64,000 nt of DNA, taken from positions 62,001 to 126,000 of the forward strand of contig NZ_BMWE01000012.1 in the NCBI RefSeq assembly GCF_014651075.1. Reading direction: 5' to 3'. Of this stretch, positions 54,665 to 55,994 are shown in pieces. The position numbers were made by a program, and so were the translations under genes. The stretch is from Streptomyces djakartensis. Its GTDB lineage: Bacteria; Actinomycetota; Actinomycetes; Streptomycetales; Streptomycetaceae. The notes under the pieces were generated by a model, which saw only the letters and a list, made by a program, of their open reading frames with translations, was not told the DNA's origin and did no database searches. The first letter of the stretch is position 1. Each line of letters begins with the position of its first letter.

Positions 54665-54973
54665 TCAGCCGACGGACTCGGGGGGCAGCGCGACGCGGGC
54701 CGTGCGCCGCTCGCCGTCCAGCACCCGCAGGGCCCTGGCCAGGGTGGCGGCGTGCAGTTCCGTCTCGCCTCGCTCGTGCATCAGGGTGAGTGCGTCACGC
54801 AGCGCGATCGCCTTGCCCACCAGGGCCTGGGCTGCATGCAGGCCACGGTAGGTGTCGCCGTCCAGGGCCGGGTTGATCCTGCCGAGCAGGTCGACGGCCT
54901 CCAGGTACCGGTCGATCAGCTCCGCTTCGGCGCGTGTCAGGGCGGGCAGTGGCGGCAGTTCGGGCGGAAGCAC
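54665..54973 (-). CDS. Small helical protein co-transcribed with the ClpP-like gene
   Basis: Protein of 102 residues of unknown family. After a Pro-rich start (PPELPPLPAL) it is predicted almost wholly helical with heptad-like leucines (EAELIDRYLEAVDLLGRI, AAQALVGKAIALRDALTLMH, ELHAATLARALRVLD). No signal, membrane segment or metal motif. GTG 54973 lies seven bases after the stop of the ClpP-like gene, and GGAAGG overlaps that stop, so the two are one unit ended by a strong hairpin. A role as adaptor or partner of the ClpP-like protein is an inference from position only. Confidence 0.7.
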   Translation of the reverse strand: MLPPELPPLPALTRAEAELIDRYLEAVDLLGRINPALDGDTYRGLHAAQALVGKAIALRDALTLMHERGETELHAATLARALRVLDGERRTARVALPPESVG

Positions 54974-54980
54974 CTGCGGC

Positions 54981-55616
54981 TCACCTTCCGGTCGGCGGGG
55001 CCAGGGTGGCCTCGCGGGTGGGCACGATCCGGTCCACCAGGCCGTACTCCACCGCCTCCTGGGCGGTGAGGATCTTGTCGCGGTCGATGTCGGCGCTCAC
55101 CTGCTCCCGGGTGCGGCCCGTGTGCCGTGCGAGCATCTCCTCCATGCGGGTCCGGATCCGCGTCAACTCGTCCGCCTGGATCGCCAGATCGCTGGCCTGC
55201 CCGTGGACCGGCTCGGGCAGCGCGGGCTGGTGGATCACCAGACGCGCGTCCGGCAGCACGGAGCGCTTGCCGGGCGTGCCCGCCGCCAGCAGTACCGAGG
55301 CGGCCGCCCCGGCCTGGCCCAGGCAGATGGTCTCCACGTCGCAGTTGACGTACTGCATCGTGTCGTAGACGGCCGTCATGGCGTGGAAGGCGCCGCCCGG
55401 GGAGTTGATGTAGAGCGAGATGTCCCGGTCCGGAGCGTGGTGCTCGAGGTACATGAACTGAGCCATCACGTCGTTCGCCGAGGTCTCGTCCACCGGCGTT
55501 CCGAGGAAGACGATCCGCTCCTCCAGGAGCTTCGAGTACGGGTCCATCGTCCGTTGGCCGGACCCGGTGCGTTCGGTGAACTCGGGCAGCACGTGACGGG
55601 CGGAAGGTCGGGTCAT
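54981..55616 (-). CDS. ClpP-family protein lacking the catalytic serine
   Basis: Protein of 211 residues with the complete ClpP fold pattern: [66 protein letters not shown] and [14 protein letters not shown]. In active ClpP the sequence after Gly-Gln is A-(A/C)-S; here it is [11 protein letters not shown], so the position of the nucleophile (residue 104) is Ala. His129 and Asp180 are kept. It may cap or regulate an active ClpP ring rather than cut peptides; the Ser three residues on would be misplaced. ATG 55616 follows GAGGAGGGG. Confidence 0.88.
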
Positions 55617-55673
55617 GGTGAACCCCTCCTCGCGGGCGGAGCCGTCTCCGGCGACGGCCGTCTCTGTAAAAAA

Positions 55674-55700
55674 TGTACAGGACGTACGTGACGTTATGAT
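55674..55700 (+). promoter_or_regulatory. Antitoxin promoter with YefM-like TGTACA site
   Basis: TATGAT at 55695-55700, a nearly perfect -10, ends six bases before the ATG at 55707, giving a leaderless message. Upstream are TGTACA (55674-55679) and the palindrome ACGTACGT (55682-55689). TGTACA is the core bound by YefM-family antitoxins, so the protein probably represses itself here. The ClpP-like gene starts 58 bases away on the other strand and could be under the same control. Confidence 0.6.
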
Positions 55701-55706
55701 GGGTCC

Positions 55707-55994
55707 ATGGCCTACGAGATTCCGGTGACACAAGCGCGGGCTGAGCTCGCCGATCTGATCAACCGCGTGGTGTACGCCGGCGAGCGCGTCGTGGTCACCC
55801 GGCACGGCAAGCCCCTCGTCGCCCTCGTCTCCGCCGATGACCTGCGGCATCTCGAAGAGGCCCACGAGCTCGCGGAGCCCGCGGACGAACACGTGATCAG
55901 CGCGGTCTCCACGGTCCGCGAGGTCCCGTCCGCTCCCGGCGAACGGCAGCGGTTCGGCATCGCCGCGGAGCACCGGGGGCCCGCCCCGGCCTAG
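55707..55994 (+). CDS. Phd/YefM-family antitoxin, no toxin alongside
   Basis: Protein of 95 residues. The N-terminal [40 protein letters not shown] and ADDLRHLEE form the Phd/YefM DNA-binding fold. The C-terminal tail is acidic and Pro-rich ([20 protein letters not shown]), longer than needed for DNA binding, as expected for toxin capture. No RelE, YoeB, Doc or PIN toxin follows: the next gene is ureA after 236 bases. Leaderless start with TATGAT six bases upstream. Divergent from the Ser-less ClpP. Confidence 0.85.

Follow-up and report, generated by a model that had tools for sequence, protein, structure and literature searches.

In this work we have analysed a 64,000-nucleotide stretch of the Streptomyces djakartensis genome (hereafter the window), in which the gene of a small Phd/YefM-type antitoxin (55707..55994, + strand) lies divergent from that of an accessory ClpP (54981..55616, − strand). 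From comparison of the locus across genomes and by analogy with characterised antitoxins, we consider it likely that this protein is an antitoxin which has lost its toxin and now serves as a dedicated, autoregulating repressor of the clpP gene, its C-terminal tail coupling it to the ClpP or to Clp proteolysis. The strongest evidence is the location of the operator at loci where the two genes have become separated.

The antitoxin, ClpP5 and the region between them

The 95-aa antitoxin is a member of the Phd/YefM family by its matches to PF02604 (E=6e-13, 48.8 bits against a curated cut-off of 29.8) and TIGR01552 phd_fam (E=4e-14, 51.8 bits, cut-off 20.8), and its profile matches PDB chains annotated as Phd and RelB over residues 5–56. 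The N-terminal DNA-binding and dimerisation half (residues 5–55, 55719..55871, +), which the Pfam match spans, is predicted to be folded: the AlphaFold model, built from only 12 sequences and with a mean pLDDT of 61.5, gives 64–88 by block for residues 1–50 and below 50 for residues 57–93. An ordered part (1–55) followed by a disordered tail (57–93), for which no confident structure was obtained, is the layout of Phd and YefM. The tail contains a conserved motif, RFGIAAEHR (residues 82–90, 55950..55976, +), in which I-A-A-E-x-R was invariant in an alignment (A2) that takes in Frankia and another family. The genome has only one close copy of the antitoxin.

This protein had been predicted to be an orphan, and it is one. 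The 224 bp between it and ureA hold no toxin ORF, and no toxin was found beside it in the window or at the relatives' loci examined, including the interval before ureA where a toxin would have spoken against the prediction; the adjacent toxin gene in the same operon that marks a type II toxin-antitoxin system is therefore missing. In 48 of 163 relatives the gap to ureA is shorter than 350 bp and has only short chance ORFs; the longer gaps that were checked are occupied by TetR, ABC2 membrane or M28 peptidase genes. On these contents we reject a hidden toxin downstream of the antitoxin, in the window and at the relatives' loci checked. The stretch itself is a variable spot, filled in some relatives (e.g. 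L137, L160) by TetR and ABC2-membrane genes or by an M28 peptidase and empty in the window.

The neighbour, predicted to be a ClpP-family protein without its serine, proved to be just that (211 aa, PF00574, E=4e-70). Its motif GQAGAAAS places Ala104 (codon 55305..55307, −) at the position of the catalytic serine, as judged against the active paralogue ClpP1 of the same genome (GQAASAAA), so that the Ser-His-Asp triad of ClpP peptidases is incomplete, although His129 and the aspartate region DIDRDK are kept. Streptomyces have up to five ClpP homologues; this genome has five ClpP genes, and the present one, being the fifth and solitary, was named clpP5 here. A second ClpP of the genome (L005, C13:166321-166899) retains its serine in GQAASTAAV and reads VLLGQP where the others read IHQP, so its catalytic histidine is apparently lost. 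Located 7 bp downstream of clpP5, and likely in the same operon, is the gene of a small conserved protein, ORF102 (54665..54973, −), which accompanies clpP5 genus-wide and matches no Pfam or NCBIfam family.

The two divergent genes share a control region of 90 bp (55617–55706), and the TGTACA operator predicted within it was found as ATGTACAGGACGTACGT (55673..55689), a near-palindrome with two GTAC half-sites 9 bp apart. YefM/Axe antitoxins bind paired TGTACA-core palindromes at a centre-to-centre spacing of 12 bp (PMC7730913); here the core is present and the spacing is 9 bp. The antitoxin gene was also said to have a near-perfect leaderless promoter. The −10 element TATGAT (55695..55700, +), conserved where the two genes are adjacent, ends 6 nt ahead of the ATG and is consistent with a leaderless message, but the promoter is not near-perfect: its −35, as read by eye, is a TGTACA within the operator that matches at 4 of 6 positions with 15-bp spacing. 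The ribosome-binding site of clpP5, AGGAGGGG, lies at 55623..55630 (−). In the whole 7.67 Mb genome there is a single exact match to the 14-mer TGTACAGGACGTAC, located at 55674–55687 of the window; the reversed-pattern control is rare, and the operator TGTACAGGAYGTAC likewise has one exact copy. A wider regulon in this genome was rejected on the basis of this single exact site; with up to two mismatches there are 152 matches versus 79 for the reversed control, so a few further sites are possible.

Conservation of the pair and location of the operator

A survey of genomes for the divergent pairing, the check proposed with the original prediction, showed that it is far from confined to one genome. 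A strong antitoxin match (E<=1e-12) was found in 233 of 296 Streptomyces genomes, and throughout the genus the gene order is NlpC/P60, ORF102 and clpP5, then the divergent antitoxin followed by ureABC. An intact clpP5 lies within the fetched stretch at 184 of 206 distinct antitoxin loci and farther off in about ten others. Beyond Streptomyces, antitoxins sharing this tail adjoin ClpP genes in Parafrankia/Frankia relatives (L318, L321, L338, L324) and, in another actinobacterial family (L322, L323), lie opposite two clpP genes in tandem; the pairing in these groups comes with a TGTACAG..TGTAC operator. At L322 the gene following the tandem resembles RbpA by eye, not clpX. In Frankia tisae (L319, L339) the antitoxin has an apparent IS630-type transposase gene upstream and no ClpP near, but the operator and tail motif remain. 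Some relatives also have duplicated, paralogous cassettes at another site in their genomes (L106, L112, L113 and, by layout, L332). In these the antitoxin diverges from an operon of thioesterase, ClpP and ORF102 genes, and the operator is kept at the antitoxin/thioesterase side.

The operator TGTACAGGAYGTAC is present in 221 of the 296 genomes, namely in 213 of the 233 with the antitoxin versus 8 of the 63 in which it is absent or weak (Fisher 5e-34, a test that ignores phylogeny). To which of the two genes does it belong? At the 126 loci where the genes are less than 135 bp apart, the operator is near clpP5 in 125, and from this adjacent class alone it could be conserved for autoregulation of the antitoxin; only the class of 57 separated loci (136 bp to 16.5 kb) breaks the tie. 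There the operator is near clpP5 in 54, the other three being thioesterase cassettes in which it precedes the clpP operon. An antitoxin gene left at a distance has a leaderless promoter of its own, which lacks the operator and carries a TAAGCT-like −10 in place of TATGAT, and the clpP5 promoter consensus, GTACGTCCTGTACATTTTTTACAGA, is identical in both classes. Because the operator stays with clpP5 when the genes separate, it appears to belong to clpP5, which would thus be the regulated gene.

Active sites of ClpP5 and the antitoxin tail

The original prediction made a dead ClpP the point of the module, and this part did not hold. Among the 184 intact clpP5 genes, 71 encode both catalytic serine and histidine, 64 the serine only, 13 the histidine only and 36 neither, so that most relatives keep the serine; pairing, operator and antitoxin tail are alike with active and dead ClpP5. 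Parsimony on the ClpP tree gave 19 changes at the serine and 12 at the histidine, which are approximate numbers as the site columns were not masked. With this many intact sites and such scattered losses, a dead ClpP is ruled out as the conserved feature: deadness is common without defining the pair. The median pairwise dN/dS was 0.28 among Ser-less pairs, against 0.21 among intact ones, so the dead copies are still constrained, and the active sites of clpP5 appear to decay repeatedly under purifying selection. The Ser-less ClpP5 of S. djakartensis itself would serve as a non-catalytic, ClpR-like subunit.

What becomes of the antitoxin when clpP5 is lost? ORF102 is kept in 11 of the 63 genomes that lack a strong antitoxin match, with clpP5 reduced to fragments or absent at their loci. 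In none of these genomes did we see an intact clpP5 unaccompanied by the antitoxin; their best ClpP scores equal those of ClpP1, so a divergent clpP5 elsewhere is possible. ORF102 persists in genomes lacking both clpP5 and the antitoxin and may have a function of its own. Conversely, in about ten genomes clpP5 has gone by deletion, frameshift or fragmentation while the antitoxin is still present (L080/L099, L096, L097, L098, L100, L101, L105, L107 and L108, with L111 a short contig). The motif core FGIAA is present in 178 of 190 genomes with clpP5, a count that includes low-scoring antitoxins and so avoids selection by antitoxin score, versus 3 of 10 without it (Fisher 2e-6), and it is kept in 46 of 48 genomes with a Ser-less ClpP5. 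The first 50 residues are equally conserved in the presence and absence of clpP5 (0.97 and 0.97). When phylogeny was considered, an independent-pairs test over nine independent losses gave 4:0 in seven supported pairs, which is not significant (p=0.125), and a branch-length test assigned 4 of the 12 core changes to branches making up 3.5% of the tree (p=6e-4). With these two results, the coupling between tail and ClpP5 is suggestive, not settled. Relaxation of the tail after loss of clpP5 is compatible with ClpP being the partner in the toxin's place and equally with the tail being a degron.

Proposed mechanism and alternative explanations

We propose that the N-terminal half of the antitoxin would bind the operator across both promoters, as expected from YefM/Axe biology (PMC7730913), silencing clpP5–ORF102 and limiting its own synthesis. 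The disordered tail with FGIAAEHR, which corresponds to the toxin-holding part of a Phd antitoxin, might link the level or activity of the repressor to the Clp machinery. The tail would be bound by ClpP5 or by a complex containing it, or else would be a degron read by Clp proteases; catalytic activity of ClpP5 would not be needed for this coupling. Phd is a ClpXP substrate in E. coli. Degradation of an antitoxin by Streptomyces ClpP has been reported for RelB2 of S. cattleya (PMC4989188). The half-site spacing of 9 bp instead of the 12 bp of YefM/Axe and the persistence of the antitoxin in the genomes without clpP5 count against a repressor of this type. It is also possible that the operator mediates activation of clpP5 and not repression.

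A generalised form of the original prediction, in which ClpP5 replaces the toxin regardless of its own catalytic state and binds the tail as a co-repressor by conditional cooperativity, amounts to one variant of what we propose for the tail, and we regard it as a tentative option with the balance of probability against it. The tail is disordered as in Phd, and its motif is constrained only where clpP5 exists, whatever the active site of the latter; against this, a degron would give the same pattern and the dead site is not conserved. That a module derived from a toxin-antitoxin system has ClpP5, active or dead, filling the toxin slot and binding the repressor tail as co-repressor or as a sensor of Clp capacity seems to us somewhat doubtful on the sequence data. 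If true, the dosage of an accessory protease would be set by the conditional-cooperativity logic of toxin-antitoxin systems.

Could the synteny be a matter of chance, the antitoxin being only an autoregulated orphan of a lost toxin, with no control over the clpP5 gene on the other side of the intergenic region? Antitoxins without a toxin are frequent (PMC2701414) and this one does survive the loss of clpP5, but we find the idea improbable, since on separation the operator goes with clpP5 and not with the antitoxin, the two genes are found paired again in other families and within duplicated cassettes, and the tail relaxes once clpP5 is gone. We give just as little credence to an unrelated regulator that would bind the operator and control clpP5, with the antitoxin merely a target. 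Relatives of ClgR or PopR would be candidates, as the S. lividans clpP1P2 and clpP3P4 operons are under their control (PMC9765437); however, the operator has the TGTACA core used by YefM/Axe (PMC7730913), differs from the published ClgR motif GTTCGC-N5-GCG and from that of PopR, and accompanies the antitoxin family in Frankia too, including at the locus with no clpP nearby. Least probable of all, and scarcely credible, is that the antitoxin is one half of a system with its toxin gene at some other place in the genome. Antitoxins are known to engage in cross-talk, yet the loci examined have no toxin beside the antitoxin, there is only one close antitoxin in the genome, and the consistent partner is a ClpP.

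Comparison with known systems

The antitoxin looks like an unreported, dedicated regulator of clpP5. In S. lividans clpP5 is described as monocistronic, and ClgR and PopR control the other clpP operons (PMC9765437). Our literature search, thin on subscription journals, found no published link of a Phd-type protein to clpP5 and no published regulator of the solitary clpP5. ClpP is the target of ADEP antibiotics. The locus supplies a candidate regulator of clpP5 with a mapped operator, and the repeated natural losses of its active site offer a set for studying non-catalytic Clp subunits. It is also a concrete, widely conserved case for the proposal of Makarova and colleagues that solo antitoxins regulate other operons (PMC2701414).

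The pair shares with Phd-Doc, YefM-YoeB and Axe-Txe the protein family, the TGTACA-core operator, its overlap with the antitoxin promoter and the disordered C-terminal tail. It differs from them in lacking a toxin, in having its operator tied to clpP5, in a half-site spacing of 9 bp where theirs is 12 bp, and in the specific conserved FGIAAEHR tail. The YefM/YoeBsl system of Streptomyces likewise belongs to the Phd/YefM family, but it has a toxin and the palindrome TCGTACGA (PMC3303803). ClpR and the non-catalytic ClpP of cyanobacteria and chloroplasts are, similarly to Ser-less ClpP5, ClpP homologues that have lost catalytic residues but stay under purifying selection, a likeness drawn from dN/dS; unlike in ClpR, the residues here have gone repeatedly and in scattered members of a single orthologous group. 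Dedicated transcriptional control of clpP operons is already known from ClgR and PopR, which are subject to feedback via ClpP-dependent degradation (PMC9765437). These are, however, activators from a different protein family which recognise other operators and act on clpP1P2 and clpP3P4, whereas what we propose here is a Phd-type repressor of a solitary clpP.
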